From Xenorhabdus bovienii SS-2004 (GTDB lineage Bacteria > Pseudomonadota > Gammaproteobacteria > Enterobacterales > Enterobacteriaceae), in contig NC_013892.1 in the NCBI RefSeq assembly GCF_000027225.1, forward strand, positions 124,001-188,000: a stretch of DNA of 64,000 bases, written 5' to 3'. The notes below the pieces were generated by a model that saw only the letters and a program-made list of their open reading frames with translations, did not search any database and was not told the DNA's origin. This document shows, in pieces, positions 10,061 through 46,768 of the stretch. The stretch's first letter is position 1; every line of letters begins with the position of its first letter. The position numbers and the translations under genes were made by a program.

Positions 10061-10064
10061 TTGC

Positions 10065-11432: not shown

Positions 11433-11442
11433 GACATGCTCC

Positions 11443-11805: not shown

Positions 11806-11890
11806 GCTGTTCTCCCTCTCTTTTTATTTTGTACCGGATTGCTGATTGATTGAAAAAGCTAATTTTCGGAAAATACAGGGGTTAGAAAAT

Positions 11891-12979: not shown

Positions 12980-13075
12980 AAATATTTTTGTAGCATCATG
13001 TGGTAAATCGACTGGAGCGAAAATAACATTATTTAAGGGATAAGTGATATTAACTGTAATACTTTGATTGGATGA

Positions 13076-14251: not shown

Positions 14252-14355
14252 CGGCTTCCCTTCATGGCTGCAATGCGGCACGGCTGTGTGAAAATTAAAA
14301 AGACTGAGAAATTCAAATATTCATTTTTTTGAATATTTATAGTGTAAAACAAAAT

Positions 14356-14718
14356 TCAGGGAATTTTGGTTGCCAGTATTAAACCATATAAATTTACCAA
14401 CAGATAGCCTTCTTCGTTGGGGTGCAGTGTGATTGTGAATTTTTCTAACAATGCGCGATGGATTTTGAATAATTGTGCGCAGTGTTCTGACTGCTCGATT
14501 TTGGTCAAGATATTCTTTTCAAGTGGCAAAACAATTTCGCCGCGACGTGAGCGCATGAAAGCACTCGCCATGTGGGTAAGCGCCATTTCACCTTGTGGAT
14601 GATGGACAGGGATTAACCAGATATCTTCTAGATCATGCACAATATCAAGCATGTTATCGTAGATATCTTGGTCGATGACGCCACCTTGCAACAGGATAGT
14701 TAGTCGTTGTTCTACCAT
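14356..14718 (-). CDS. yhfY: YhfY, PRD-domain protein
   Basis: This 120-residue protein matches YhfY, a stand-alone PRD (PTS regulation domain)-like protein with histidines in VHDLEDIWLIPVHHPQGEM (near residues 29-47) and EMALTHMASAFMRSRRGE. PRDs normally regulate transcription through phosphorylation by the sugar phosphotransferase system. Here the domain is alone, so it may act with the adjacent regulator YhfZ; that is an inference. The length is the same as in E. coli. It lies 50 bases downstream of yhfZ. Confidence 0.85.
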   Translation of the reverse strand: MVEQRLTILLQGGVIDQDIYDNMLDIVHDLEDIWLIPVHHPQGEMALTHMASAFMRSRRGEIVLPLEKNILTKIEQSEHCAQLFKIHRALLEKFTITLHPNEEGYLLVNLYGLILATKIP

Positions 14719-14767
14719 TGCTTTTTGTTATACGTCAGGTTAATCATTTGATTTGGTTTATTGAGCG

Positions 14768-15676
14768 TCAATAAACTGGCTCGATTGTGCCTGCGACCAC
14801 GTTTTGTTGATGAGTCAGCAGTGCTTCCCGATCAACCATGGTGTACAGGAGTTGCTGGATGGGGATGTTGTCCTTACGAGCCAAAATAACGGCTTCGGAG
14901 GCTTTGATAAAGCACTCACTATCATCTGGAAGCTGAGTCATCAAACCTTGTGCTACCAGTTCGTGACCCTGCCCGACGTTCCAAATGGCCGCATCAATGT
15001 GGCCTTTCATGATTTGATTCAGACATTCGTGATAGGAGACCTCGACCACTTCAATCTCTTTTCCTTCAAAATACTGATTCGTCATTATTTTTTGGTCTGC
15101 TGAAGTACTGTCCAACCCAACCCGGCGAATGGAATCCATTTCGCCATGACGAAAGATTAATCTATGCCTGTCTGTATAACTTTGTGTCCCTAGTGAAAGC
15201 GCAATATATAAATCTTTATTTTCTGGGTGCTGCTCTGCGGCAAGTCTTGACGTTACTGCTAAGTCATAGACGCCATTCAGTAAGCATTCAATGCGGATGT
15301 CTGAACCACGCATATGTGCAAAATAAAAAGGAATCTCTGCACACAATGCTTTTAAACCACTGGCCAGACCTTCATAGGCGCGGGTATAAGGAAGCGGCAT
15401 TGCGCAGACCACATTGCCGATATCGGCATACTCCAAGAGTAATTTATGGTTAATCTGCGAAAGAAAGCTGCCATTACGACCACGACGCTTAATTCCAACC
15501 GCTTGTGCCTGTTCAAGAGATTTCAATGCTGCTTGCATTAAACCTACGGACAATCCACATTCTTTAGCCAGTAACTCGATAGTTTTCAGGCGGTTGCCAC
15601 ATTGCTCAGAGAGGAGATAACGAGCTAGAAACGATTGTGCAATCCCCTCTTTTTTAATGAATGTTTGACTCATCAT
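14768..15676 (-). CDS. yhfZ: YhfZ, GntR-like transcriptional regulator with a periplasmic-binding-like domain
   Basis: This is the first gene of the yhf operon and its likely regulator. Residues about 15-70 form a winged helix-turn-helix (LLAKECGLSVGLMQAALKSL, then GRNGSFL). The remainder resembles a substrate-binding-protein fold for sensing a ligand, with SRLAAEQHP and ILARKDNIP segments. The two adjacent ATG codons at 15676 and 15673 are both possible starts. The 302 residues match the E. coli protein's length. The ligand is unknown. Confidence 0.85.
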   Translation of the reverse strand: MMSQTFIKKEGIAQSFLARYLLSEQCGNRLKTIELLAKECGLSVGLMQAALKSLEQAQAVGIKRRGRNGSFLSQINHKLLLEYADIGNVVCAMPLPYTRAYEGLASGLKALCAEIPFYFAHMRGSDIRIECLLNGVYDLAVTSRLAAEQHPENKDLYIALSLGTQSYTDRHRLIFRHGEMDSIRRVGLDSTSADQKIMTNQYFEGKEIEVVEVSYHECLNQIMKGHIDAAIWNVGQGHELVAQGLMTQLPDDSECFIKASEAVILARKDNIPIQQLLYTMVDREALLTHQQNVVAGTIEPVY

Positions 15677-23758: not shown

Positions 23759-24037
23759 ATGACTGTTACGATAGAAGTGACTTGTCGATATTGCGACCAA
23801 GCAGAACCTGTACGCAAACACGGAACAGGTAAGGCTGGCTTCCCTCGCTACTATTGCAAAGGCTGCCAAAGAACCTTTCAACTCAACTATCGTTACAACG
23901 GCCATAAACCGGGTATGAAAGAAAAAATTGTGGATATGGCAATGAATGGCTCTGGCGTGAGAGACACAGGCCGTGTATTAGGTCTCGGTATCAATACGGT
24001 GATGCGGACATTAAAAAACTCTCGCCAAAAAAAGTAA
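23759..24037 (+). CDS. insA: IS1 InsA, DNA-binding protein
   Basis: InsA binds the IS1 ends and represses transposition. The 92-residue product has an N-terminal zinc finger (CRYCDQ and CKGCQRTFQL) followed by a helix-turn-helix (GSGVRDTGRVLGLGINTVMRTL). Near its end the slippery heptamer AAAAAAC (24013-24019) would let ribosomes shift back one base and continue into the insB frame, producing the InsAB' transposase. Confidence 0.85.
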   Translation: MTVTIEVTCRYCDQAEPVRKHGTGKAGFPRYYCKGCQRTFQLNYRYNGHKPGMKEKIVDMAMNGSGVRDTGRVLGLGINTVMRTLKNSRQKK

Positions 24038-24471
24038 CATCGCGACAGATCGCTTATGACGATGTCACACTTATCTGTGAATTGGATGAGCAGTGGTTTT
24101 TTATAGGCAATAAAAAACAACGTCATTGGCTTTGGTATGCTTTTGATACGAAAAGGAAACAAGTCATCGCCCATGTCTTTGACCCCCGAACGGATGCAAC
24201 CTGCCGAAAATTGCTCAACTTATTGGTGCCTTTTAATATTCGTTTCATCACGACCGATAACGGGGGAAGTTATGCCAGAGAAGTGGTGCCGGAAAAACAT
24301 AGGGTAGGCAAAATTTTTACCCAACGTATAGAGCGGCATAATCTCAATCTGCGAATTCATATCAAAAGGTTGGCAAGAAGAACCATTTGTTACTCACGTT
24401 CAATGGAAATCCACGAAAAACTCATTGGCGCATATATTGAAAAACATCATTACAACCCTTTGGAGTCATGA
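24019..24471 (+). CDS. insB: IS1 InsB' catalytic part, reached by -1 frameshift
   Basis: After the -1 shift at the A6C site the frame reads from CTC at 24019 to the TGA at 24469-24471. It includes the IS1 transposase core with ICELDEQWFFIGNKKQRHW (first Asp), FITTDNGGSYA (second Asp) and QRIERHNLNLR (Glu), the DDE residues of this family. The first in-frame ATG of the separate frame is at 24082. No stop interrupts the frame, so the element may be active. The stop codon lies inside the right terminal repeat, as usual for IS1. Confidence 0.82.
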   Translation, partial: LSPKKVTSRQIAYDDVTLICELDEQWFFIGNKKQRHWLWYAFDTKRKQVIAHVFDPRTDATCRKLLNLLVPFNIRFITTDNGGSYAREVVPEKHRVGKIFTQRIERHNLNLRIHIKRLARRTICYSRSMEIHEKLIGAYIEKHHYNPLES

Positions 24472-25658: not shown

Positions 25659-25791
25659 TTGTCTCACTATTCACTAGATCAGGCTGCCCAGTAGAAACAG
25701 GGAGAAATTCCCACATTAGTTACCGCTGCAAAATTTGCTCAATATGTAGGTGTTAATGTAATTCGTGCTGGGAAAACAGCTGTGGGAGAGT
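25659..25791 (+). pseudogene. Possible small phage-type regulator remnant
   Basis: AAGGAG (25648-25653) precedes a TTG at 25659. The frame reads MSHYSLDQAAQ, an amber stop, then KQGEIPTLVTAAKFAQYVGV before ending about 20 residues later. The second part looks like the start of a small helix-turn-helix protein such as a phage Cox/excisionase, cut off by the IS5-type element. This is weak evidence from a short stretch. Confidence 0.3.
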
Positions 25792-26603
25792 GATATTATT
25801 ATTAAACGTCAGCAGCCTTGTTTGCCCCTTGTCCATTCAGAGCTAGCAGGACGTCTACATGTTGAATATCGCCGTGTGATGAATGGGGTGTTCTGGGTGG
25901 GGGCACCATGGCACGATTTACCTGAGCGCTATGGGCCTTGGAAAACGGTCTATAACCGATTTAATCGCGGATCAAAATCGGGCATTATCGACAAAATATT
26001 TAACCGATTACTGTCTGTTCTTGATGAAAAAGGCTTAATTGACTGGTCTGAAATTTGCCTAGATGGCAGCAATATTCGCATCAGTAAAGATGCTGCAGGC
26101 GCGAAAAAAAACATCTCGATATTGCTGGCGATTATGTGCTGGGTCGCTCACGTGGTGGTTATGATACAAAAATCTATTTGGCAACTGACGGAAAGGGCTT
26201 TCCATTTAACCTGATGTTGACCGTAGGGCAAGCCCATGAAAGTCAATCCGCTATCCCTTTGCTCGACGGAGTTGGCGTACAACGTAAAAATGGCTTCATG
26301 AAATGGCGTGGCAAAGCCGTGTTGGCCGATAAAGGCTATTCGGGCGGAAAACCCCGCAGTTACCTGCGAAAATTGAGACTAAAAAGCATTATTCTTTATA
26401 AAGTCAATGAAAAAGGTAGTAGTGATGGGTGTACACAATTTGATGAACCGATTTGTCGTAACCGCAATGTTGTCGAACGCTGTTTCGGTTTTCTTGAAGG
26501 AAATCGGCGTATCACAACCCGTTATGAAAAAACAGCACGAAACTATCTGTCCATGGTGAAATTGGGCAGTATTCGACTCTTTTGCAGAAGGTTATATAAT
26601 TGA
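25765..26603 (+). mobile_element. IS5-family transposase (IS427-like, two overlapping frames)
   Basis: The first frame (25765-26214) carries the N-terminal part with FWVGAPWHDLPERYGPWKTVYNRF and the first catalytic Asp in ICLDGSNIRIS. A run of eight A at 26105-26112 is where a -1 shift leads to the second frame (GDYVLGRSRGGYDTKIYLATDG, the second Asp in VLADKGYSGG, and the Glu in NVVERCFGFLEGNRRI), ending at 26603. Such a shift is programmed in IS427-group elements, so the enzyme may be made. The GTG at 25765 gives an atypical N-terminus and I could not find the terminal repeats, so the left end may be damaged. Confidence 0.75.
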
Positions 26604-26709
26604 GTGATATAGCCTAGCGCTAAAACTATTCTGTTCTACGGAGTGAATATTCGTCAGGCCTATAATTTTAGAAAGAACCGTTATAATAATTATTATAAGA
26701 TAAAACAAA

Positions 26710-26727
26710 AAATGTGATTTCACATTT
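26710..26727. promoter_or_regulatory. Palindrome upstream of the cupin operon
   Basis: AAATGTGA-TT-TCACATTT is a perfect 8-base inverted repeat with a 2-base spacer, 85 bases before the cupin gene. The spacer is too short for a CRP site (6 needed). It is a candidate operator for the operon at 26812-30475; the binding protein is unknown. Confidence 0.35.
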
Positions 26728-26811
26728 ATGAAACAGTTTTTATATACTTGCATTACATTTTAAGGTATTTACAAAAAAAATTAGATATATATTTTATGTG
26801 TGGGGAAAACA

Positions 26812-27540
26812 ATGAATATTCGTAATAGAACACCGAATTTTGATGACGTAGCTAACATTGTGAAAATTCTAGGGATAACATCTAATAATGGTGAATCTTT
26901 TGATAGAGATTTGCATCTTTATTCACTAATAGAAAAACCATGGGGGTTTGAATATCGGGTTTATTGTGATTCAATTTTTGATGTATGGAAATTACATATA
27001 TCTCCACAGGAAAAAACCTCTATGCATTGCCATATTCAAAAAGATACTGTTCTCATCTGCTTAAATGGTAGTGGTGTGACAAAATTCCTTGATGGTGATG
27101 AGTTTAATATATCTGTTGGCCAAGTGGTTTATATAGAGCGAGGAGTTTTCCACCAAACTATTTCGACTGGAAATGATTACCTTGAACTTATTGAGGTAGA
27201 AAATCCAAGAAATAAATTCGACCTATTACGTTTGTCAGATGATTATGGTCGAGCGGCTCAATCATATGAAAATGTTAGTCTTAATCATGACCTGCTTTCT
27301 CCACTAAAATTAATCTCACCAGGAGCATATATTCGAAATGTTGACATAAACTCTAAATTTTCTTTTTTCCTTGAAAAATTAAATATTGATATATTAGATG
27401 ATGAAAATATTTTATTTATTGTCAGTCTTAGTATTGATAGTCATCTTTCAGGAAAAATAAATATCTTTTTAAAAGAAGATGTTAAATGTCGTAGCTATAT
27501 TGGCCAACAAGTCTTACTAATATCACGAAAAAATAAATAA
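26812..27540 (+). CDS. Cupin-domain protein, first gene of an unrecognised operon
   Basis: This 242-residue protein has a single recognisable cupin. Cupin motif 1 is at His72 and His74 (SMHCHIQKDTVLICLNGSG), and motif 2 ends at His114 (GQVVYIERGVFHQTI). The preceding EKPWGFEYRVY resembles mannose-6-phosphate-isomerase-type cupins. The C-terminal 100 residues are not recognisable. The fold could be an isomerase, epimerase, dioxygenase or ligand sensor. The ATG at 26812 follows GGGG by seven bases; an in-frame GTG lies four codons upstream. The gap to the next gene is 11 bases. Confidence 0.75.
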   Translation: MNIRNRTPNFDDVANIVKILGITSNNGESFDRDLHLYSLIEKPWGFEYRVYCDSIFDVWKLHISPQEKTSMHCHIQKDTVLICLNGSGVTKFLDGDEFNISVGQVVYIERGVFHQTISTGNDYLELIEVENPRNKFDLLRLSDDYGRAAQSYENVSLNHDLLSPLKLISPGAYIRNVDINSKFSFFLEKLNIDILDDENILFIVSLSIDSHLSGKINIFLKEDVKCRSYIGQQVLLISRKNK

Positions 27541-27551
27541 AGGTATATTTT

Positions 27552-28127
27552 ATGTTAGATAAATTTAAATTGGTTATTATTACCGGACCAGGATTCCAAG
27601 ATCATGATCTCGTTTACACTTATTACCGCTCAATAGAAGAGGGTTATGATGTTTCCATCGCTACTAAAGATGGAGAATCTGTAATTGGAAAGTATGGCAT
27701 CTCAGTACCTATGGATAAACGGGCAAAACAAAATATTACATTTGACGATTTGAATGAAGAAAAATTTGATCTTGTCATTCTTACTGGTGGTCATGAAGCA
27801 CCTGACCGGGTTCGTCAGGATCAACGGGTAAAAGATTTTGTGTCTAATATGTCTAAACAAGAAAAAGTAGTAGCAGGCTTGTGCCATGGTCCTTGGATCA
27901 TGATTTCTGCTGGTGTGATGAAAGGCAAGTTAGCTTGTGCTTATGTGGGTTTGAAAGATGACATGGAGAATTCTGGGGCTAATGTTATTGAAGCTGATGT
28001 TGTTGTAGATAAAAATATTATCACATGCTCTTACTATTCTGAATGTGGGAAATTTATGAAAGAAACTTTTGCGGCAGTTAAAAGATGGAACAAAGGTGAA
28101 AAGCTAACAGAACCATTAGTGGTGTAA
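27552..28127 (+). CDS. DJ-1/PfpI superfamily protein (PfpI-like)
   Basis: The 191-residue protein has the superfamily's nucleophile elbow AGLCHGPWIMISAG, with Cys111 followed by His112, and the strand DLVILTGGHEAPDRVR near residues 73-88. Family members include the PfpI/YhbO stress proteins, isonitrile hydratase and DJ-1 deglycases. The region that usually holds the PfpI catalytic Glu reads GFQDHDLVY here, so that residue is not obvious. It sits 11 bases after the cupin gene and 3 before the HAD gene. The substrate is unknown. Confidence 0.8.
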   Translation: MLDKFKLVIITGPGFQDHDLVYTYYRSIEEGYDVSIATKDGESVIGKYGISVPMDKRAKQNITFDDLNEEKFDLVILTGGHEAPDRVRQDQRVKDFVSNMSKQEKVVAGLCHGPWIMISAGVMKGKLACAYVGLKDDMENSGANVIEADVVVDKNIITCSYYSECGKFMKETFAAVKRWNKGEKLTEPLVV

Positions 28128-28130
28128 AAT

Positions 28131-28868
28131 ATGATTATTGCACTTGATTTTGATGGTGTGGTTGTTGATGCTATCGATGAATGCCTTCTGGTTTCTTGGA
28201 ATACATTTAACGGAAAAGGATATCAGCAATTTAATAAAAATACTTTGGAATCCATTCCTAGATCTTTCAGAGAAAAATTTCTCAATTATAGAAGTTACGT
28301 GAGACATGATGGGCATTTTATTGTTCCCTATTATTTAAATGATGAGGTTTTTGTAAATAAGGATAGTTTCGAAAATGTTTATTCTAGAATATCCACGTCT
28401 GATAAAGATAGATTTAGAAATTCATTTATAGAATATAGAATTAAGGTGCGTAATACATACCCCAAAGTATGGACGTCACTGCATAAATTTCTTATGGATA
28501 TTGAGACATTATTAAATTCAGGAAATGAGTTCATCATAGTTTCAGGAAAGGATTCTAGTTCTATACATTTTTTATTGTGTATGATAGGGGTTGAATTTCC
28601 CATTTCAAAAATATATGGAAGGATGACCAATAAATCTGAAACATTAAAATCCATAAATAATAAAGCGTACATGAAAGGAGAGAAATTTATTTTTATAGAT
28701 GATAATTTAGATAATGTTAAAGAAGCTATTAATAATGATATCCCTTCTGTTTGGGCAGAGTGGGGATACAACACAAAAGAACAATTTTGTGAAGCAAAAC
28801 AGCTTAAAATCCCTTCGCTGAAGCAGAAAGACTTAAGCGATCTTATCAAATCACTTCATCAATATTAA
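28131..28868 (+). CDS. HAD-superfamily hydrolase
   Basis: All four haloacid dehalogenase motifs are visible in 245 residues: motif I ALDFDGVVVD (Asp6, Asp8), motif II IIVSGKDSS (Ser138), motif III near Lys168 (GRMTNKSE) and motif IV FIFIDDNLDN (Asp190, Asp191). The Asp two residues after the nucleophile points to a phosphatase. A long helical cap (residues ~15-125) separates motifs I and II, suggesting a small-molecule substrate. It starts three bases after the previous stop, so translation is coupled. It is strikingly AT-rich. Confidence 0.8.
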   Translation: MIIALDFDGVVVDAIDECLLVSWNTFNGKGYQQFNKNTLESIPRSFREKFLNYRSYVRHDGHFIVPYYLNDEVFVNKDSFENVYSRISTSDKDRFRNSFIEYRIKVRNTYPKVWTSLHKFLMDIETLLNSGNEFIIVSGKDSSSIHFLLCMIGVEFPISKIYGRMTNKSETLKSINNKAYMKGEKFIFIDDNLDNVKEAINNDIPSVWAEWGYNTKEQFCEAKQLKIPSLKQKDLSDLIKSLHQY

Positions 28869-28878
28869 GTGAGGAAGT

Positions 28879-29592
28879 ATGATCAATAATGTTAAAAGAG
28901 CTTTAATTATCGTAACATCACATGCAATTTTAGGGAAAACGGGAAGGCAAACTGGATTTTATTACGAAGAACTTGCTACACCTTATTGGGAATTTGTTGA
29001 TGCGGGATACACCGTTGACATAGCCTCTATTAATGGAGGGACAGCTCCCGCTGATCCAAGTAGTGTTAAAAGTTCCGACCAACAACCAAAGTCTGTGCGT
29101 CGTTTCCTCAACGATAAAAGCTGTATGAATAAGGTTAATACTACAAAATCAATTTTGAATATTGATCCGAATAGCTATCAGATTGTCTTTCTTCCCGGTG
29201 GGCACGGTACGATGTGGGATTTTGCTCAATCTATGTCTCTGGCAACGCTACTTAGCAAGCTCTATCAAAACGGTGCTGTTCTTGGTTCTGTATGTCATGG
29301 TGCAGCCGGATTGTTGAATGTAAAAACTGCTGATGGTATTCCACTTGTGGAAAACCGAAAAATTAATTCTTTCACTGAAGCTGAAGAACAAGCCTCTGGT
29401 TTAGATAACGTAGTTCCTTTCATCCTCGAAACTGAGCTCAAAAAACTCGGTGCACATTTTGAATGTGCGGCTAATTTTGAACCCTATGTAGTATCTGATG
29501 GTCGTTTGATAACTGGTCAAAATCCAGCATCTTCTGGTTTGGTAGCCGCTGCTATTCTCAAGGCTGCTAATCATCTTTACAATAAGGAGTAA
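28879..29592 (+). CDS. DJ-1 superfamily protein, Hsp31/glyoxalase III-like
   Basis: This 237-residue protein is the second DJ-1-type enzyme in the operon but from a different branch. It has [20 protein letters not shown] (the conserved Glu near residue 30) and the nucleophile elbow [14 protein letters not shown] (Cys139, His140). [20 protein letters not shown] and the C-terminal [10 protein letters not shown] complete the pattern of Hsp31-like class I proteins. Relatives convert methylglyoxal to lactate without glutathione or act as protein repair enzymes. The ATG follows GAGGAAGT. Confidence 0.82.
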
Positions 29593-29599
29593 CAATATT

Positions 29600-30475
29600 A
29601 TGACCAAAGAAATTCTTTGTGGATTCGGTGTGGGTGTAGACGCGGTTGCCGGTTGGTTATCTTCGTATGGTGGTGAAGATTCACCAAGTGACATTTCACG
29701 TGGAATGTTTGCTGGTGAAATCGGTGTTCCACGGCTTCTTAATTTGTTCAAAAAATTTGATATCCCAACAACTTGGTTTATACCTGGTCATTCGATCGAG
29801 ACATTTCCTGAACAAATGAAAATGGTTGTAGATGCAGGTCATGAAATTGGTGTACATAATTACAGTCATGAAAATCCTATTGATATGACGCCGGAACAGG
29901 AGAGGATAGTCTTACAAAAAAGTATTGATATGGTCACCAAATTATCTGGGAAAAAGCCAACAGGATATGTGGCTCCTTGGTGGGAGTTTTCTCCATCAAC
30001 TACAGATTTGCTCTTAGAGCATGGCATCAAATATGATCATTCTCTTATGCATAACGATCATCTTCCATATTATGTACGTAAAGGTGATTATTGGACGAAA
30101 ATTGATTACACAAAACATCCTGACGAATGGATGAAGCCGTTGATCAGGGGGAAAGAAACTGATCTTGTCGAACTTCCTGCTAGTTGGACCGTAGATGACA
30201 TACCTCCTTTTATGTTTATGAAAAATAAAGCCAATAGTCAAGGTTTTATGAATCCGCGTGATATTGAACAACTATGGCGCGATCAATTTGATTGGGTGTA
30301 TCGGGAAATGGAATATGGTATTTTCACTTTTACTATTCATCCTGATGTTTCAGGCAGACCTCATGTATTAATGATGCTTGAAAGACTTTTGGTACATATG
30401 TTGGGTCATCCTGGCGTAAAATTTATGACACTCAATGATATTGCGGATGATTTCAAAAAAAGAAATCCACGATAA
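29600..30475 (+). CDS. CE4 polysaccharide deacetylase family protein (PgdA/cyclic imide hydrolase-like)
   Basis: The 291-residue protein carries the CE4 NodB-type fold. The motif 1 Asp is in [18 protein letters not shown] (Asp14), and motif 2 HNYSH supplies the metal His86 and His90. Then come [10 protein letters not shown] and a C-terminal [11 protein letters not shown]. This subfamily covers Helicobacter-type peptidoglycan deacetylase PgdA and bacterial cyclic imide hydrolases, which also lack a signal peptide as here. A cytoplasmic small-molecule amidase is therefore as likely as a sugar deacetylase. It ends the five-gene operon (7 bases after the DJ-1 gene). Confidence 0.8.
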
Positions 30476-30494
30476 TAAAAATATAGGCTATTTA

Positions 30495-30516
30495 AAGCAG
30501 CCATTTCTGGCTGCTT
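30495..30516. terminator. Bidirectional terminator
   Basis: AAGCAGCCA pairs perfectly with TGGCTGCTT around TTTC, followed by ATTTCAT on the plus side and preceded by an A/T stretch. It lies between the convergent CE4 gene and the LysR gene and would end both transcripts. Confidence 0.75.
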
Positions 30517-30519
30517 ATT

Positions 30520-31419
30520 TCATCCAAAGTAACCCTGTTGAGCTAAGTTGATTATATGATTTTTAACATATAAAACTCTTGGGTGCCGCAGTGCGCTTTT
30601 ATTCCACACAAGATAAAAATTATTCTCTGGAATATTAGTATTATGGTTTATTTTGAAAACTTTCCTGCTTTTAAATCCATCTTCGCATAAATATTCAGGC
30701 ATAACGGTCCATCCATTATTATCACTTATAATTCTCCCAATTACTCTGAGATCAGAGATGGTAATTGATGGTAAAATATCTGCCTCAACACCAAAAACTA
30801 ATTTATAATAATCTCTAATTAGAGGTAATTGATTATCGTAGGAAATTAATGGGTATTTTTCTAATATTTCAGGGCTGATTGATTTGTTCTTTAATTCAGC
30901 TGCTATAGATGCTGATGTTACTATAATGAGTTTTTCTTTTCCTATGATTTCAAAGCCGAATTTATTTTCATCTGGGCAAGATGTTGTAAAAGCCAAATCA
31001 CTATCTCCATCATTCAAACTAGAATAAATTTTTTTTCGGTCACCAATCAACAGCTTAAATCTGAGCTGTTTATTAATGATTGAGGATAAAATATTTGCTG
31101 ATTTTGCCCATAGAAAATCAGCTGGAGCAATGATCTTCACGACACCTTCAATTTTCTTCGATTTTCCACGAATTAATGAGAGTTTGGTTTCAATCGCATC
31201 TAAATGAGTCCCTATTTGAAGGACAAGATCATCGGCTTCAGCCGTAGGTATAACGCCATGGGAGCGACGAGTAAATAATACACTACCCATAAATGACTCT
31301 AGAGAGTGTACATGTGCAGATACAGCAGGCTGACTCACTCCCAGCCTCGTTGCAGCTTTTGAAATCGAACCAGATCTATAAACATCAAGAAAACTACGTA
31401 ATTGAATAAGATAGCTCAC
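30520..31419 (-). CDS. LysR-family transcriptional regulator
   Basis: The 299-residue protein has the N-terminal helix-turn-helix GSISKAATRLGVSQPAVSAHVHSLE (residues 17-41) and a C-terminal effector-binding domain (residues ~90-295). The start is a GTG at 31419, eight bases after GGAG. It diverges from the MFS gene and converges with the five-gene operon, so it is most likely to regulate the exporter and perhaps the operon. The inducer is unknown. Base composition matches the neighbouring AT-rich genes, suggesting they arrived together. Confidence 0.88.
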   Translation of the reverse strand: MSYLIQLRSFLDVYRSGSISKAATRLGVSQPAVSAHVHSLESFMGSVLFTRRSHGVIPTAEADDLVLQIGTHLDAIETKLSLIRGKSKKIEGVVKIIAPADFLWAKSANILSSIINKQLRFKLLIGDRKKIYSSLNDGDSDLAFTTSCPDENKFGFEIIGKEKLIIVTSASIAAELKNKSISPEILEKYPLISYDNQLPLIRDYYKLVFGVEADILPSITISDLRVIGRIISDNNGWTVMPEYLCEDGFKSRKVFKINHNTNIPENNFYLVWNKSALRHPRVLYVKNHIINLAQQGYFG

Positions 31420-31601
31420 AGACAGTTCTCCTCTTCCAGAAGTAACTCTTGTTCAATGGTCATGTAAAAATATTGAATTACTTGTTGAAATATAAATGAT
31501 ATTAAAATACTTATATCATATGCAATATAAATTTATTTTTATTATGTCTATTCTATATTTATTATGATCTTACATAGTCATAGGATATTTTGGAGTCGAA
31601 T

Positions 31602-32783
31602 ATGCCGTTTGTTATTTATATTTTTTCTTTGTGTGCGTTTGCTCTCGGACTGACAGAATTTCTGGTGATTGGACTTGTATCAGCCATATCTACTGACTTC
31701 CATACATCAGTAGAGTCTGTTGGTTTAACAGTCACGGCTTACGCAGTAGGAGCGACCATTGGAGCCCCATTCCTTACAGCAGTAACCACGAGATGGTCAC
31801 GAAAAGGTGTAATGCTCACTACAATGATGATTTTTTCTATCGGGAGCCTGGCGGCAACATTTTCCAGTAGTGTTGAAATGATGATTGTTTCGAGATTTGT
31901 CGCTGGTCTTGCTCACGGACTGTTCTTAGCTGTTTCAGCTAGTGTCGCGACTGATCTTGTTCCTCCAGAAAAAAGTGGGGCAGCAGTTGCATGTGTTTTT
32001 ACTGGGCTAACACTGGCGCTTGCCTTAGGTGTTCCAATAGGAACATATTTAGGAAGTGTTGTATCTTGGAAATTTAGTTTTTCTTTGGTTACGATATTTG
32101 GATTAATCGGCCTTATCGGATTGATTTTTTTGATGCCAGCCAATACAGGAAATAAAAATGATGTGATTGCACACCCGGTAAAATCATTATCTTATATATT
32201 TAGTCCTACTCTTCTTTTAGGTGCACTTGTTACTGTATTAGGTTATACAGGTGCATTTACTTTGTATACATATATCTCCCCTTTCCTTTATCAGGTAACC
32301 AAAGTTTCTATTCAGACAGCAAGTTATATGATGTTGATTTACGGAGGATTTGCTGCTGCTGGAAATATTATAGGTGGAAAAATGACAGATGCTATCGGAG
32401 CGGATCGCTCTGTCATGATCATATTATTGTCACTGAGCGCTGATTTACTACTTATGTACTTTTTCGGGCAATCATTGATAATAATGGGTATTCTAATTGC
32501 AATTATTGGTGCAATTTCTTATGCGGCAGTTCCTGCCATGCAAGCTAGAGTAATAAGCATTGCTAAGTATAATGTTCCTGAAGCAATTCCGGTGGCTTCG
32601 GGGCTTAACATTGCAGGTTTTAACGCAGGAATAGCTTTAGGCTCCGTTGTGGGGGGAATAATTATTTCTTATTTATCCATTGCTTACCTTGCATTAGGCG
32701 GTGTTGTAATATCATTAGCTGGGATATGTGTCATGATATTTCTCCCTAGACCAACCAAGATTTTGATCAGTCAGGATGAGTAA
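31602..32783 (+). CDS. MFS efflux transporter (DHA1 type)
   Basis: The 393-residue protein has about 12 membrane segments and the drug:H+ antiporter pattern of the AraJ/YdhP-like branch. Residues 1-25 resemble FALGLTEFLVIGLVSAIS, the loop after segment 2 is TRWSRKGVM, and the motif C-like stretch is TLALALGVPIGTYLG. I use the ATG at 31602, seven bases after GGAG, rather than the TTG at 31590. It diverges from the LysR gene, a usual arrangement for a regulated exporter. It may export the product of the adjacent operon or be an independent drug pump. Confidence 0.87.
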   Translation: MPFVIYIFSLCAFALGLTEFLVIGLVSAISTDFHTSVESVGLTVTAYAVGATIGAPFLTAVTTRWSRKGVMLTTMMIFSIGSLAATFSSSVEMMIVSRFVAGLAHGLFLAVSASVATDLVPPEKSGAAVACVFTGLTLALALGVPIGTYLGSVVSWKFSFSLVTIFGLIGLIGLIFLMPANTGNKNDVIAHPVKSLSYIFSPTLLLGALVTVLGYTGAFTLYTYISPFLYQVTKVSIQTASYMMLIYGGFAAAGNIIGGKMTDAIGADRSVMIILLSLSADLLLMYFFGQSLIIMGILIAIIGAISYAAVPAMQARVISIAKYNVPEAIPVASGLNIAGFNAGIALGSVVGGIIISYLSIAYLALGGVVISLAGICVMIFLPRPTKILISQDE

Positions 32784-32852: not shown

Positions 32853-33599
32853 GGTTGTGTATTCAAAGCGTTGTTCTTAAGTTATAATCACCATTTTTAT
32901 GGGGAGAACTTGAGTGGCAACAGTGGAAGTAAAATGCCGCTTTTGTAACCAAACAAAAGCGGTGAAAAAGTATGGTAAAGGGAAAGGGGTCACCAGCGTT
33001 ATCGTTGCTTTTCCTGTCATCGCACTTTCCAACTGGATTATTCTTATCGCGCCTGCTATGCCGGGATAAAAGAACAAATCTTTGATCCTGCTATGAATAA
33101 TTCAGGTATTCGTGATACCGCACGGGCATTACATATCAGTATTAATGCTGTTGTTCGCACCCTAAAAAACTCCGCCAAGATGGGTAACCTGGATAATTTG
33201 GAAATTCAGTTAATCTGTGAAGTTGACGAGATGTGGTCTTTTGTCGGCAATAAAAAACAACAACGTTGGTTATATTATGCTTGGGAACCCCGTCTGAAAC
33301 GTATCATTGCTCATACCTTCGGAAGGCGGAATAAGAAAACGCTGAAGAAGCTATTGAAAAAACTCGCTCGATTCAACGTAGCTTTCTGGTGTACAGATAA
33401 TTTAAATGCTTACAATATGTTACAAACGAATAAACACCTCATCGGGAAAAGTTTCACGCAGCGGATCGAGCGTGAAAATCTCACCATTCGTAATCGAATT
33501 AAGCGATTAAACCGCAAAACATTGGGTTATTCAAAGTCGCCGGAAATGCATGATAAAGTCATAGGGACTTTTATCGAAAGAGAATATTATATTTAGAAT
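32853..33599 (+). mobile_element. IS1-family insertion sequence, copy 2 (right end missing)
   Basis: The left terminal repeat GGTTGTGTATTCAAAGCGTT begins at 32853 and matches the ends of copy 1 at 23702-24473. The inner organisation has the same spacing (about 60 bases to insA). The right repeat is absent: the element stops just after the transposase stop at 33596 and continues directly into an IS3 fragment. The protein is clearly divergent from copy 1, so the two are different IS1-type elements. Confidence 0.75.
32914..33596 (+). pseudogene. IS1 transposase (InsAB) broken by one missing base
   Basis: From a GTG at 32914 the frame reads the zinc-finger start VATVEVKCRFCNQTKAVKKY. It then meets AAAGGGGTCACC near 32983-32994, where a fifth G is needed to continue as GGHQRYRCFSCHRTFQL. 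The frame resumes with MNNSGIRDTARALHISINAV and stays open through InsB to 33596, including CEVDEMWSFVGNKKQQRW, FWCTDNLNAYN and QRIERENLTIRNR. Unlike copy 1, the insA and insB parts are fused in one frame although an A6C run is present. One base lost in the G-run kills the N-terminus, unless it is a sequencing error. Confidence 0.75.
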
Positions 33600-33614: not shown

Positions 33615-34133
33615 ATGCATAACCCGAGCATCCAGTGGTCCGGTGATATTACGTCCATCCGCATAAAAGAGGGCTGGCGCTATCTTGCCGTGGTGATTGA
33701 TTTATTTTCCCGTCGCGTGGTAGGAATGGCAATATCTTCCTCCCCGAATGCTGAGTTGGTATGTCGGGCACTGAACAATGCGTTAGAAACGCGTTATATT
33801 GAAGGCCGACTGATTTTTCACTCAGATCAAGGAAGTCAATACAGCAGCAAAAAGTTTCGCCGGTTACTCTGGCGAAATCAGGTTATCCAAAGCATGAGTC
33901 GAAGAGGCAACTGCGATGATAATTTCCCAATGGAACGGGTATTCCGGAGCTTGAAAAGTGAATGGATCCCACCAGAAGGTTATCTGGATATTCATGATGC
34001 GATACGGGATATTACCCAATATCTGGGTGGCTATTACAATCACCAACGTCCCCATCGCTTTAATGGCGGGATGTCATCGGTTGAATACGAAAGAGGTTGG
34101 GAAGAGGCTAAAAATATGTCCGATATCTTTTGA
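33615..34133 (+). pseudogene. IS3-family transposase OrfB, C-terminal fragment
   Basis: The 172 residues cover only the catalytic integrase core. The first Asp is in WSGDITSIRIKEGWRYLAVV, followed by DLFSRRVVGMAI. The second Asp is in IFHSDQGSQYSS and the Glu in MERVFRSLKSEW, before the C-terminal YYNHQRPHRFNGGMSSVEYE. OrfA and the N-terminal half of OrfB are absent and a stop lies just upstream of the ATG. The right end near TTTTGACCACTATA (34128-34141) may be the IS3 terminal repeat. It directly abuts feoC. Confidence 0.78.
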
Positions 34134-41514: not shown

Positions 41515-42297
41515 CTACATCTTAGTTTGTTTGCTGTTTCTTGATTCAAGAATACGCATTAATTTATCAAAGTCTGGTATTACATCACCATTGTATATTA
41601 TTGTGCCGTCAGGATAAGTCATTGATGTATCTGCATCCTTATTTTTTCCTCCATTCCAATGAGTTAAAAATTTTTTTTCATATAAGACATTAAGATGAAT
41701 TTTTCTGCCATTATCCATTTTATATGTCATAACATCATGCTCTCCTACCAAATAAAATGATTGACTATGCCCCCCTAAGAACCTCTCTCTTAGTAAAGGA
41801 AATAGAGTAATTTCTTCATTTAAATTACCTGTTTTTTTTATATATCCCCCATCAAATTCTTGTGGTGCATTACCATCAATAACAAATGTCGTTTTAAATC
41901 CAAAATTATCGTCAATAAGAGGCGCAATTGTTGACGTATCTTTCAGTTTCACTTCGAAAGTAAGATTACTCAGTTTCCAATCACACTTCCCCCCTCCCTC
42001 CTTAGGGACACTGACCTCAACTTGATTTGACTGACCGATTGATAGCGGGTAGGTAGCATGATGAAAACCCGGAACAGAATACGATTTCATATTCGCAGTT
42101 CGGCGTTCTTTGCGGCAAATTTTAGAACGATACATGGCTGAAATGGGTAAGGCATCCAACTCATCCGGAATAGTGGCCATAAAATGAACATTCTCTCCAT
42201 TAATCGGTGGAGAGAATGATCCGCTTTGCGCACATCCTTGTATGAAAAACACAGCAAGCAGGGGGGATAATACGCGTTTATTACAGAGAAATTTCAT
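41515..42297 (-). CDS. Putative T6SS immunity lipoprotein, paralogue 3
   Basis: This is the third and most distal of three tandem paralogues downstream of a lipase effector. The start at 42297 gives MKFLCNKRVLSPLLAVFFIQ followed by GC, a signal peptide with lipobox, so the mature protein is an outer-membrane or periplasmic lipoprotein beginning at Cys22. The first ~160 residues are nearly identical to the other copies (for example ISAMYRSKICRKERRTANMK). The last third differs (RERFLGGHSQSFYLVGEHDV, ending SRNSKQTKM). The family is not recognised; immunity to the lipase is inferred from position and export. Confidence 0.7.
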   Translation of the reverse strand: MKFLCNKRVLSPLLAVFFIQGCAQSGSFSPPINGENVHFMATIPDELDALPISAMYRSKICRKERRTANMKSYSVPGFHHATYPLSIGQSNQVEVSVPKEGGGKCDWKLSNLTFEVKLKDTSTIAPLIDDNFGFKTTFVIDGNAPQEFDGGYIKKTGNLNEEITLFPLLRERFLGGHSQSFYLVGEHDVMTYKMDNGRKIHLNVLYEKKFLTHWNGGKNKDADTSMTYPDGTIIYNGDVIPDFDKLMRILESRNSKQTKM

Positions 42298-42328
42298 GGG
42301 TGCTTTCCTTGTATCGTTCAACCGAATT

Positions 42329-42370
42329 TAATCTGACAGGCCTAAATCAAAGTGGGCAACTGTCAGATTA
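42329..42370. repeat. Linker repeat 2
   Basis: TAATCTGACAG (42329-42339) and CTGTCAGATTA (42360-42370) are a perfect 11-base inverted repeat around CCTAAATCAAAGTGGG-type sequence. It lies between the second and third immunity-like paralogues. No T-run follows on either strand. Confidence 0.75.
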
Positions 42371-42393
42371 AGTCTGAATGACTACATCTTAGT

Positions 42394-43158
42394 TTATTTG
42401 CTGTTTCTTGATTCAAGAATACGCATCAATATTTCATATTCAGGTCTAACCTCGCCATAAACAATATCGCCATTAGGATATGTCATAAATGGCCTGTCAT
42501 TGTTCTTTCTATCAGTCCAAACTGAAAGCATTTTTTTTATATATATGTAACTTAGGTTAATGTTTTTAGTCGCTCCTACTTTATACGTTAACGGATCTCC
42601 TTTCCCTATAAGATAAAATGAAGTCTCATTTACACTTAAAAATAATTTTGTTAGAAGGGGAAATAAAATTATTTTTTCATGCAAATTTCCATTTATTTTT
42701 AAATAACCGCCATCAAATTCTTGTGGTGCATTACCATCAATAACAAATGTCGTTTTAAATCCAAAATTATTTTTAATAAGAGGCGCAATTGTTGACGTAT
42801 CTTTCAGTTTCACTTCGAAAGTAAGATTACTCAGTTTCCAATCACACTTCCCCCCGCCCTCCTTAGGGACACTGACCTCAACTTGATTTGGCTGACCGAT
42901 TGATAGCGGGTAGGTCGCACGATGAAAACCCGGAACAGAATACGATTTCATATTCGCAGTTCGGCGTTCTTTGCGGCAAATTTCAGAACGATACATGGCT
43001 GAAATGGGTAAGGCATCCAACTCATCAGGCATAGTGGCCGTAAAATGAATATTCTCTCCATTCATCGGTGGAGAGAATGAGTCGCTTTGCGCGCATCCTT
43101 GTATGAAAAACACAGCAAGCAAGGAGGAGAATGCGCTTTTATTGCATAGAAATTTCAT
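42394..43158 (-). CDS. Putative T6SS immunity lipoprotein, paralogue 2
   Basis: A 254-residue middle copy of the triplicated family. It starts at 43158 with MKFLCNKSAFSSLLAVFFIQ followed by GC (lipobox, Cys22); an ATG eight codons upstream is in frame but lacks a site as good as AAGGAAAAC. It shares with the other copies RSEICRKERRTANMKSYSVP and GGGKCDWKLSNLTFEVKLKD. Its C-terminal third is close to paralogue 1 but not identical (YKVGATKNINLSYIYIKKML). Selection for varied specificity, or drift after duplication, could explain the differences. Confidence 0.7.
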   Translation of the reverse strand: MKFLCNKSAFSSLLAVFFIQGCAQSDSFSPPMNGENIHFTATMPDELDALPISAMYRSEICRKERRTANMKSYSVPGFHRATYPLSIGQPNQVEVSVPKEGGGKCDWKLSNLTFEVKLKDTSTIAPLIKNNFGFKTTFVIDGNAPQEFDGGYLKINGNLHEKIILFPLLTKLFLSVNETSFYLIGKGDPLTYKVGATKNINLSYIYIKKMLSVWTDRKNNDRPFMTYPNGDIVYGEVRPEYEILMRILESRNSK

Positions 43159-43189
43159 GGGTGTTTTCCTTGTATCACTCAACCGAATT

Positions 43190-43232
43190 TAACCTGACAG
43201 GCCCTAAATCAAAGTGGGCGACTGTCAGATTA
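43190..43232. repeat. Linker repeat 3
   Basis: TAACCTGACAG (43190-43200) and CTGTCAGATTA (43222-43232) form an 11-base inverted repeat with one mismatch between paralogues 1 and 2. It shares CCTAAATCAAAGTGGG with the other linkers. Confidence 0.75.
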
Positions 43233-43255
43233 AGTCTGAATTACTATTTCTTAGT

Positions 43256-44020
43256 CTATTTGCTGTTTCTTGATTCAAGAATGCCCATTAACTTTTTATA
43301 TTCAGGTCTAACCTCGCCAGAAACAATATCACCATTAGGATAGGTCATAAATGGCATGTCATTGTTCTTTCTACCCGTCCAAACTGAAAGCATTTGTTTT
43401 ATATATATGTAATTTATATTAATTTTTTTAGCCGTTCCTATTTTATACGTTAACGGACTTCCTTTCCCTATAAGATAAAATGTATTCTCATTGCCATTTA
43501 AAAAGCTTTTTGTTAGAAGGGGAAATAAAATTATTTTTTCATGTAAATCCCCATTTATTTTTAAATAACCGCCATCAAATACTGCTGGTGCATTACCATC
43601 AGTAACAAATGTTGTTTTAAATCCAATATTATCGTCAATAAGAGGTGCAATTGTTGACGTATCTTTCAGCTTGACTTCAAAAGTAATATTACTCAGTTTC
43701 CAATCACACTTCCCTCCCCCCTCCTTAGGGACACTGACCTCAACTTGATTTGACTGACCGATTGATAGAGGGTAGGTAGCATGATGAAAACCCGGAACAG
43801 AATACGACTTCATATTCGCAGTTCGGCGTTCTTTGCGGCAAATTTCAGAACGATACATGGCTGAAATGGGTAAGGCATCCAACTCATCAGGAATCGTTGC
43901 GATAAAATGAACATGCTCTCCATTAATGGGTGGAGAGAATGAGTCGCTTTGCGCGCATCCTTGTATGAAAAGCACAGCAAGTAGGGAGGATAATACGTTT
44001 TTATTACATAGAAATTTCAT
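43256..44020 (-). CDS. Putative T6SS immunity lipoprotein, paralogue 1 (effector-proximal)
   Basis: This 254-residue copy overlaps the end of the lipase effector gene by 17 bases (ATG at 44020, lipase stop at 44004-44006). Such translational coupling is typical for effector-immunity pairs. The signal peptide MKFLCNKNVLSSLLAVLFIQ is followed by GC (lipobox). The mature protein carries the conserved RSEICRKERRTANMKSYSVP and CDWKLSNITFEVKLKDTSTI segments. A periplasmic lipoprotein fits protection against a phospholipase delivered to the periplasm. The family name is unknown to me. Confidence 0.75.
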   Translation of the reverse strand: MKFLCNKNVLSSLLAVLFIQGCAQSDSFSPPINGEHVHFIATIPDELDALPISAMYRSEICRKERRTANMKSYSVPGFHHATYPLSIGQSNQVEVSVPKEGGGKCDWKLSNITFEVKLKDTSTIAPLIDDNIGFKTTFVTDGNAPAVFDGGYLKINGDLHEKIILFPLLTKSFLNGNENTFYLIGKGSPLTYKIGTAKKININYIYIKQMLSVWTGRKNNDMPFMTYPNGDIVSGEVRPEYKKLMGILESRNSK

Positions 44021-45950
44021 TGGCGCCTTCCTTATATCGCTCAAGAGCGTGTTTCAATAATTCATCCTGGTTAACATCTTGTTTAAAAATATCGTGCAGG
44101 TTATTTTCGAGTGCCATAAAAGTGGTGTTACGTTTTGCATTCAGTGGAGAGGCATCTTGATGATGTATTAATTCATCAAATTTCTCTTTTGAAGCTATTA
44201 GCTTAGGCGTTTTCGTTGGCTCTAAGAAACTGAGCAATTGATTATTTATAATGGCTTGATATTTACTGCCCATAAAGTGGTCTGTTGCCGTCGTTATAAT
44301 CGTATCTAAATCAGGATTATTCCATTGTGGGAATATTTCATCGAGAACAGACTTATCTCCCTTTAATGAGTCCACATATTCCTGTTGTTCATTCTCTAGT
44401 CCTTTATCTAATGAATTAGCTATGCTCGGAACTAAATAAAACTTATAGATGCCATTCATGCGCCATCTTTTTTTACCCGTAAAACCGACACCATTCTTAC
44501 TTGGAATTCTTTCTTCACCCATTTGTCTCGCCTGAAAGAAGCTCACGGTATTCCCTTGGTGATAATAGACTTCACCCATCTCGGGGAGAGATTTTTGTAT
44601 TGGAATGGTCGGCAATGTTGCCAAAGTCCAGCTAAAGCCAAAAATGGTTCCTAGTGGCCCATAAACTTCAAATAACCAGTTATCCATATTGGTATCAAAT
44701 GGCACGCTCGTTACGCTATCGGCATCATTGACATGTCGGAAGTGATTCAGTGACGTTAAGGCTTTAACGCCACTTCCAGTGAGGACTCTCGGCATTCCAT
44801 ACGTATAAAGGAGCGGGTTATTATTTCTTAGCTCTGTGGCGTGCAATAAAGCAAGTGCCCCCCCCAAACTATGACCGCAGATAAATAACTTTTTAAGATT
44901 AATATGTTGTGATGATTCTTTGATTTGTTTAATTTCATTTATAAAATATTTTTCCATGCACTGATAAGCTTCTAAAAAGCCCTTATGAACCTTGGCTTTT
45001 CCACCGGGAAGAATATTCTCTGGGCATGGAATAGGGCGGTAAGTCCCATCCGTCAGCGCATCTCTCGAGCTTGCCGTCCCTCGCCATGCCGCAATAATTT
45101 GCGTTTCATTTTCAACAAAAAACATTTGAGTATCATGCTCAAACGTTTCAGGCGTTTCCACTTGTTCAACATCCAGGAATATTGCCGGTCGATAACGTTC
45201 TTTAAATGGTACATCGTTTACAATCGCGGGATAAACGGAATGATCATTGATAACAGGGGTTTTTGATAAGTCAAAGCATTGCTGGTAGAAAAAAGAAGTG
45301 GTCGTATCGGGAGTATTAATAAATTTCCTCATATTAATATCAGGAGAATCTGGGTTAACCATCACTTCATTCTTATACACCAATAGTGACATGAGTCCTA
45401 GGTTATACGCATTCACTATATCGTAGTTTGGTGTATGTTTTAGGATTAAAGACCATGCTCTAAACGGACATACCTCAATCACATGACGTTGATTAAAATC
45501 CTCACCGTAAAACTCTAATCCTTTAAATTCATTTTCTTTCGGAAAATGGTAGTAAGGTAGCCCAAACTTAGCTTGTTCCCACTTTGCAATATTAGGGGCT
45601 TTGTCACACAACTCACCAATGACAGCATAACGATAAAAATAACCTTTGGATTCGGCATCTGGCTTGACTGTTGAATGAGACTCACCACGCAATGTTCGTA
45701 ATGGTCGTGTTTCCATCTCATCGGCAAGTTTTTGCCCACGGAGAAATAAACGTATAGGAGAAGCAGGCAATTTATCTGCTCGGATCATGCCGTTTTCATC
45801 CGTCTTTCCCGGACGCTCAACTTTACTATTTTTTAAAATATAGTCCATCTTAGAAATGGGTTTATTGTGTTCATCAACAAGCTGAATTTCTATTTTGTTC
45901 TTTAACATTCCCGGGCAATTATGACAATAAACCGAATTAGCATTACTCAT
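44004..45950 (-). CDS. T6SS class-3 lipase effector (Tle2/TseL-like architecture)
   Basis: The 648-residue protein is probably a phospholipase fired into rival cells. The Lipase_3 nucleophile elbow FICGHSLGGALAL places the catalytic Ser at 361. Likely partners are Asp411 (HVNDADSVTSVPF) and His464 (VYYHQGNTVSF). MFFVENETQIIAAWRGTAS upstream is also typical of class-3 lipases. The N-terminus has a CHNCPG cysteine pair and an Ig-like segment (IEIQLVDEHNKPISKMDYIL to about residue 75), probably for loading. Gene order vgrG, DUF4123 chaperone, lipase, immunity matches V. cholerae vgrG3/tap-1/tseL/tsiV1-type cassettes. No secretion signal peptide is present, as expected for T6SS cargo. Confidence 0.85.
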   Translation of the reverse strand: MSNANSVYCHNCPGMLKNKIEIQLVDEHNKPISKMDYILKNSKVERPGKTDENGMIRADKLPASPIRLFLRGQKLADEMETRPLRTLRGESHSTVKPDAESKGYFYRYAVIGELCDKAPNIAKWEQAKFGLPYYHFPKENEFKGLEFYGEDFNQRHVIEVCPFRAWSLILKHTPNYDIVNAYNLGLMSLLVYKNEVMVNPDSPDINMRKFINTPDTTTSFFYQQCFDLSKTPVINDHSVYPAIVNDVPFKERYRPAIFLDVEQVETPETFEHDTQMFFVENETQIIAAWRGTASSRDALTDGTYRPIPCPENILPGGKAKVHKGFLEAYQCMEKYFINEIKQIKESSQHINLKKLFICGHSLGGALALLHATELRNNNPLLYTYGMPRVLTGSGVKALTSLNHFRHVNDADSVTSVPFDTNMDNWLFEVYGPLGTIFGFSWTLATLPTIPIQKSLPEMGEVYYHQGNTVSFFQARQMGEERIPSKNGVGFTGKKRWRMNGIYKFYLVPSIANSLDKGLENEQQEYVDSLKGDKSVLDEIFPQWNNPDLDTIITTATDHFMGSKYQAIINNQLLSFLEPTKTPKLIASKEKFDELIHHQDASPLNAKRNTTFMALENNLHDIFKQDVNQDELLKHALERYKEGANEISM

Positions 45951-45965
45951 AAATAGGTGCTCCTG

Positions 45966-46760: not shown

Positions 46761-46768
46761 TATTACGG

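Follow-up and report, generated by a model that had tools for sequence, protein, structure and literature searches.

What does an operon do that joins a cupin, two proteins of the DJ-1 superfamily, a HAD-type hydrolase and a CE4 protein? The question is raised by a locus in Xenorhabdus bovienii SS-2004, found in a stretch of 64,000 nucleotides (hereafter the window) that covers positions 124001–188000 of the genome, a single contig with 4,225,498 bases. A first-pass annotation had described five open reading frames (ORFs) here, with a LysR regulator gene and a divergent MFS transporter gene directly downstream; on the sequence we confirmed the ORFs and their coordinates, the gaps of 11, 3, 10 and 7 bases between the cupin, PfpI-like, HAD, Hsp31-like and CE4 genes, and both downstream genes, which diverge since lysR is on the minus strand and the MFS gene on the plus strand. 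Pfam likewise backed the assigned families for the cupin, both DJ-1 proteins, CE4, LysR and MFS, whereas the HAD protein had no Pfam or NCBIfam match at an E-value of 0.001. Our answer is a tentative one, held a little short of even confidence: the operon would be an inducible module, spread by horizontal transfer, for processing and exporting one particular carbonyl compound that is reactive and probably phosphorylated.

A core of genes in distant bacteria

The first-pass annotation had named recurrence of the neighbourhood as the point on which the operon would stand or fall, and seven other loci proved to keep the cupin, PfpI-like, HAD and Hsp31-like genes together. A search of 72,556 plasmid records with the CE4 protein turned up a plasmid of Rouxiella badensis that carries all seven genes, arranged as in the window; there the cassette, with a GC content of 0.365, is poorer in GC than the first 8 kb of the stretch examined (0.491). 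The Rouxiella record (NZ_CP060593.1; L003 and L007) has two imperfect copies of the cassette near its ends, which carry different frameshifts or ambiguous bases, and its arsenic genes are duplicated too; the doubling is probably an assembly overlap, as a consequence of which the genes are partly unannotated. For finding further loci no probe was as specific as the HAD protein. Two short HAD peptide patterns, an approach of limited sensitivity, identified two relatives on genome contigs, one in a metagenome-assembled genome of Aquabacterium (L009; Betaproteobacteria, Burkholderiales) and one in Mycolicibacterium vanbaalenii (L010; Actinomycetota, Mycobacteriales), each with the cupin, PfpI-like and HAD genes arranged in this order and with an Hsp31-like gene close by. 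HAD profile searches gave two strong matches in 298 genomes (that of L010 itself and G508, with the L010 gene order) and four in 300 genomes (that of L009 itself and G747, G1014 and G985, with the L009 order).

No further strong HAD match was present in 394 genomes of the window's order (a single-sequence query), in 329 genomes of its phylum, both sets including its own genome, or in 296 genomes from the phylum to which L010 belongs, that of L010 among them; the genome samples overlap, and each is a subset of a larger group. Weak matches, with E-values between 4e-7 and 1e-3, were dropped; they began no earlier than model position 62 and so lacked the N-terminal DxD motif. Their exclusion removed one of three genomes in the 298-genome search, 32 of 36 in the 300-genome search and 13 of 14 in the 296-genome search, the fourteenth having two weak second places. 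A scan of 600 stretches of viral contigs with a two-sequence HAD alignment found no relative, and a megablast search of E. coli genomes, which detects near-identical DNA only, found no match. Judged by these samples, the cluster looks rare, yet it is spread across two phyla; no description of it was met among the papers listed by searches of the open-access literature, which does not prove the absence of one.

Two of the eight loci are enterobacterial, four betaproteobacterial and two actinobacterial. All eight keep the cupin–PfpI–HAD order and have an Hsp31-like gene near; a beta-propeller-like gene lies between the PfpI-like and HAD genes of G1014, and pieces of such a gene lie there in G985, a contig with runs of N. 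The Hsp31-like gene is directly 3' of the HAD gene in both enterobacterial and both actinobacterial loci, comes after a VOC gene and a divergent LysR gene in Aquabacterium and G747 (the latter with two Hsp31-like copies), and precedes the cupin gene in G1014 and G985. CE4, present only in the window and Rouxiella, is not part of the core, and a gene of the glyoxalase superfamily (VOC) occurs in the other six loci. The VOC proteins of all four betaproteobacterial loci are glyoxalase-I-like and 63–66% identical to one another, the two that were scored reaching 107 and 113 bits against the TIGR00068 cut-off of 120; both actinobacterial loci also encode a VOC domain, which in G508 is fused to an ABM (antibiotic-biosynthesis-monooxygenase-like) domain. 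The ABM–VOC fusion of the actinobacterial form of the cluster, at L015:9327–10100 on the minus strand, has a weak similarity to LsrG (29.1 bits against the NCBIfam cut-off of 135).

The actinobacterial loci additionally have a third DJ-1 protein (whose L010 version is related to structures of isonitrile hydratase and of plant DJ-1D), a ferritin-like PF12902 protein and an SDR-like gene. Every locus includes a transporter gene, of MFS type in four, SLAC1 type in two and EamA type in two (tested against Pfam in G1014 and judged from a very similar ORF in G985), whose products are presumably exporters, and every locus includes a regulator gene, LysR in seven and TetR in Mycolicibacterium. No kinase, ligase, nonribosomal peptide synthetase or polyketide synthase gene was recognised among the cluster ORFs, which were inspected by eye with no family search for each ORF. 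The four core proteins have distance matrices that correlate with one another across seven loci (r 0.50–0.84, with 1 to 112 of 5040 permutations equally high), as expected of genes travelling together; L055, which is nearly identical to L054 and contains runs of N, was left out of this correlation and of the HAD and Hsp31 alignments.

In Xenorhabdus itself the operon has the marks of an insertion: its five genes have a GC content of 0.352 versus 0.516 for bioH and 0.522 for feoB, both of them neighbours, and the insertion sequence (IS) remnants reported earlier on both sides are indeed there, IS1 and an IS5-type piece to the left and IS1 and an rve-type piece to the right. The distance from the OsmC-like gene to feoB, which holds the operon, is ~10.9 kb in the window, while in 17 genus-mates with a readable feoB locus it is 338–561 bases in four and ~1.37 kb in two, the other 11 being uninformative with the OsmC gene not inside the 1.5-kb flank of feoB. 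A full CE4 match was confined to the window's own genome among 30 genomes of the genus (a 23-residue match in G021 was dropped from this count). The low GC, the flanking IS pieces and the short OsmC–feoB gap in genus-mates together mark the region as an island, and by these sequence comparisons the operon is shown to be laterally acquired and foreign in origin.

Active sites of the core and CE4 proteins

The PfpI-like protein is the best conserved of the core, with 59–81% identity to that of the window across the eight loci, as compared with 20–31% for eight PfpI-type proteins from outside the operon, five of them encoded on plasmids and the other three in two of these same genomes. It matched PF01965 and scored 130.2 bits, below the TIGR01382 cut-off of 139.05. 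With the PfpI/YhbO proteins (PH1704, YhbO) it shares the Pfam family, the Cys-His pair (C111–H112) and Asp85, which aligns with PH1704 Glu74; the acidic partner that the first-pass annotation had reported missing is thus present, and the residue that is missing is the counterpart of PH1704 Glu12. At that position all eight operon copies have Gln16, versus Glu in all eight outsiders. Where the operon copies invariably have C129, the eight outsiders have Thr; at C159, also invariant, seven outsiders have Ser and one has Ala. The window protein and its relatives thus differ from PfpI/YhbO in having Gln for an essential Glu and two invariant Cys residues in addition to the nucleophile C111, and in forming a separate clade. 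The PH1704 residues are taken to have their usual roles, and Glu12 to correspond to DJ-1 E18 and yeast Hsp31 E30. In DJ-1, E18Q abolishes the hydrolysis of cyclic 3-phosphoglyceric anhydride (cPGA); for the methylglyoxalase and esterase activities E18 is essential, as is E77 in HchA (PMC12135873). The equivalent Glu of a yeast DJ-1 is required for glyoxalase III activity (PMC4021431). We infer that the PfpI-like protein is under strong selection and that its chemistry has changed.

The Hsp31-like protein is a candidate glyoxalase III. Its residues E31, C139, H140 and E170 are invariant in an alignment of eight rows from seven loci, and they align with those of yeast Hsp31 (1qvv) and of glyoxalase III 4lru, presumably from Candida, to which it had a profile match with an E-value of 4e-46. 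While the Glu-Cys-His residues are thus common to it and the Hsp31-type glyoxalase III enzymes, it belongs to a subfamily of bacterial proteins that is closer to 4p5p and 1u9c, and its HchA score of 58.5 bits is well below the cut-off, 365. In glyoxalase III the Glu and the Cys are essential for activity (PMC4021431). The four best plasmid matches after Rouxiella, all unlinked to the cluster, lie among old-yellow-enzyme (OYE), alcohol dehydrogenase (ADH), SRPBCC or glyoxalase genes, with a LysR gene in three of the four neighbourhoods and a glyoxalase gene in one. These LysR-linked electrophile operons have an Hsp31-like protein of the same subfamily as the window's and are the main support for a role in carbonyl handling; they differ in that the window cluster lacks OYE and ADH, and that the annotated genes of the four 7.7-kb stretches include no cupin–PfpI–HAD core.

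The profile of the HAD protein reached, weakly and mainly over its C-terminal half, predicted HAD phosphatases in the PDB (2ah5, E-value 2e-6). HAD enzymes are characterized by motif I (DxD) and motif IV (DD), and D6 and D8 and D190 and D191, invariant in seven sequences, agree with these, which makes phosphatase-type catalysis plausible. The cupin is 35–62% identical to that of the window across the eight loci, with H72, H74, H114 and a PRNK motif invariant; its domain matches are of the mannose-6-phosphate-isomerase (sugar-phosphate isomerase) type (Cupin_2, 36.2 bits against a cut-off of 27.2; MannoseP_isomer, 31.1 bits against 23.6), and at 40.8 bits versus 372.95 it is not a TIGR01479 equivalog. 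The families of the cupin and HAD proteins suggest a substrate that is phosphorylated and sugar-like.

The best solved relative of the CE4 protein is HpPgdA (3qbu, E-value 1e-144), with which it aligns without gaps over 291 residues, keeping the metal ligands D14, H86 and H90 as well as W127, W128 and H247. The earlier statement that all key catalytic residues are visible was nevertheless wrong for this protein, which has Gly12 where an Asp of HpPgdA contacts the catalytic water; position 12 is Gly in the window and Rouxiella and Asp in all eight others (the seven relatives described below and G126). In the HpPgdA structure D12 and H247 lie beside the metal-bound water, and D14, H86 and H90 are the metal ligands; the same paper reports no activity on the substrates tested, allantoin among them, and suggests a small-molecule substrate (PMC3084791). 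Activity on acetylated xylan, chitin, chitosan and p-nitrophenyl (pNP) acetate is described in PMC3688963, which cites earlier work on HpPgdA as a peptidoglycan deacetylase. HpPgdA has also been grouped with the imidase of P. putida YZ-26 and with HxnM (PMC9304392, PMC8478523), a member of the same family for which the opening of a cyclic imide has been proposed (PMC9304392).

In all seven regions with CE4 relatives that we examined (L004–L006 and L056–L059; three rhizobial, the others from Klebsiella, Rubrobacter, Thioclava and the archaeon Haladaptatus), amidase or asparaginase genes lie beside the CE4 gene, an arrangement that agrees with an imide role and would be expected of a pathway whose next intermediate is a half-amide. 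The six bacterial proteins are 65–75% identical and the archaeal one 48%. A gene for a small hypothetical protein and one for a GTP-binding protein are also near in six of the seven regions. This amidase-linked set looks like an imide-catabolism operon carried on plasmids of Alphaproteobacteria, Klebsiella and Rubrobacter, and the HpPgdA-type proteins, whose natural substrate is uncertain (PMC3084791, PMC9304392), are now linked to amidase clusters in bacteria and one archaeon. The role of an ordinary peptidoglycan deacetylase was rejected, based on the amidase or asparaginase genes of the seven relatives and the inactivity of HpPgdA towards the substrates assayed in PMC3084791. The window CE4 protein shares full-length likeness and the metal triad with HpPgdA and the cyclic imide hydrolases (HP0310, HxnM and the P. 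putida YZ-26 imidase), but it differs from them in Gly12, in its DJ-1 and HAD neighbours and in that the window operon contains no amidase or asparaginase gene. Given Gly12, the operon CE4 proteins seem to have departed from ordinary imide hydrolysis.

A proposed carbonyl module and its rivals

Building on the conserved gene set, its foreign origin, and the families and residues described above, we speculate as follows on the sensing and the enzymatic steps of a carbonyl module. The LysR regulator would sense the carbonyl compound, the cupin would rearrange it and the HAD protein would dephosphorylate it; the Hsp31-like enzyme would convert an oxoaldehyde to a hydroxy acid, possibly acting in other lineages with the glyoxalase-I-like VOC protein or the third DJ-1 protein. 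The Gln-type PfpI protein might perform a related step by altered chemistry, CE4 might handle a ring-closed imide- or lactam-like form in the enterobacteria, and the transporter would remove the product. Several points weigh against this proposal. Gln16 replaces the Glu needed for the methylglyoxalase activity of DJ-1, Gly12 removes the presumed base of CE4, the window cluster has no glyoxalase I, and the rarity of the cluster argues against general damage repair. Moreover, an unlinked Hsp31-like relative in Caballeronia is 50.9% identical to the window's by tblastn, and the protein is therefore not clade-specific; because this relative is nearer than the betaproteobacterial and actinobacterial operon copies (41–48%, tblastn), the gene was possibly recruited more than once. 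By this comparison the Hsp31-like gene is the loosest member of the core.

The first-pass annotation had considered repair or detoxification of aldehyde damage, which agrees with the glyoxalase-I-like VOC proteins of the betaproteobacteria and with the Hsp31 neighbourhoods; with the PfpI Glu and the presumed CE4 base missing, however, a simple repair story leaves out two of the five enzymes. That DJ-1-type enzymes serve general repair, acting on proteins and metabolites that have been glycated or acylated, would account for two DJ-1 superfamily proteins, one with glyoxalase III residues, but we consider it unlikely since the cluster is rare and laterally acquired, and since Gln16 in its most conserved DJ-1 protein predicts the loss of the known activities. 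Nitrogen scavenging, in which CE4 would open cyclic imides in the manner of nicotinate or imide breakdown and its product would be handled by the other genes, draws on the amidase or asparaginase genes beside all seven CE4 relatives and on the imide proposal for HxnM (PMC9304392); the window operon has no amidase, however, CE4 occurs in two of the eight loci and the presumed base is lost in exactly those two, so that we regard this as more unlikely still. That unrelated genes were assembled by accident between insertion sequences could be argued from the IS pieces on both sides, but the same core stands in eight loci of three lineages; the seven further loci led us to reject this highly improbable explanation, as recurrence in bacteria so distant indicates that the operon is real.

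Ranking close behind the carbonyl module is the possibility, which we nonetheless view with some doubt, of a small biosynthetic or tailoring cluster, in line with the other reading of the first-pass annotation. The core would make a small metabolite of an amide, imide or lactone-like kind, ring or carbonyl steps would fall to the DJ-1 and VOC proteins, and the MFS protein would export the metabolite. The exporter-like gene and dedicated regulator, the rarity and lateral transfer of the cluster, the PF12902 ferritin-like and SDR-like genes of the two actinobacterial loci and the ABM–VOC fusion of one of them would all fit such a cluster. No gene for building a carbon skeleton or activating a carboxylate was recognised in the clusters by eye, however, and several of the accessory genes are typical of detoxification. 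It is thus the gene content that favours the carbonyl module, while the altered active sites of the PfpI-like and CE4 proteins keep the biosynthetic alternative alive.

Because a residue on which their known relatives depend is absent from two of the enzymes, the operon may do unfamiliar chemistry. A joint reading that we put forward with caution, as possible and far from assured, is that the PfpI-like proteins could be a separate DJ-1 clade (Gln in place of the proton-transferring Glu; C111, C129 and C159 invariant) within an undescribed core pathway, that PfpI, the unclassified HAD protein and the cupin could form a three-enzyme pathway for a phosphorylated reactive metabolite, laterally spread across phyla, and that the enterobacterial CE4, its presumed base lost, might now perform a different, perhaps non-hydrolytic step. 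The natural substrates of DJ-1 superfamily proteins are still argued over, and the operon provides a compact, testable gene set for seeking that of one member. The Glu-to-Gln PfpI clade and the Gly12 CE4 proteins are, in addition, natural variants of well-studied active sites.

Layout of the locus and neighbouring genes

The features of the operon and of its flanks are given in the table below. An in-frame GTG for the cupin ORF lies at 26800, and the MFS protein scored 221.9 bits against the NF033135 (NCBIfam) cut-off of 400.

Table. Genes of the operon and flanking insertion sequence pieces, in window coordinates
Feature	Position	Strand	Basis or place
Cupin	26812–27540	+	PF07883/PF01050 above cut-off
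PfpI-like DJ-1 superfamily protein	27552–28127	+	PF01965
HAD-type hydrolase	28131–28868	+	Profile E-value 2e-6 to predicted HAD phosphatases; seven-sequence alignment
Hsp31-like DJ-1 protein, candidate glyoxalase III	28879–29592	+	PF01965; profile match 4lru
CE4 protein, HpPgdA/cyclic-imide-hydrolase family	29600–30475	+	PF01522; 3qbu match
LysR-type regulator	30520–31419	-	PF00126/PF03466
MFS transporter, drug-exporter-like	31602 (ATG)–32783	+	PF07690 (MFS_1)
IS1 transposase piece	23759–24471	+	Left flank
IS5-type transposase piece	25765–26603	+	Left flank
IS1 transposase	33093–33596	+	Right flank
rve-type transposase piece	33615–34133	+	Right flank

An AT-rich dyad, TTATAATAATTATTATAA (26680–26710), lies 5' of the cupin gene and has a 13-base core in common with Rouxiella, and a second, ACTTATATCAT (31490–31530), lies between lysR and the MFS gene in both the window and Rouxiella; they could be LysR sites or chance occurrences in AT-rich DNA, and their meaning is doubtful. 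A scan for promoters and terminators gave 21 promoter-like sites, versus 29.3 in shuffles, and six terminator-like sites, versus 3.1. Anti-phage defence was rejected as a function, as none of the five operon proteins matched the PADLOC defence models.

Elsewhere in the window, three closely similar tandem lipoprotein-like ORFs (41515–44044) lie beside a lipase-like ORF (44004–45950), with a VgrG-like ORF (46769–48691) near the triplet; the region from 41515 to 48691 may encode a lipase effector of a type VI secretion system together with immunity genes that have been duplicated. The ORFs at 8966–15676 are presumably like the E. coli yhfS/T/X/Z cluster with its phosphotriesterase homologue.

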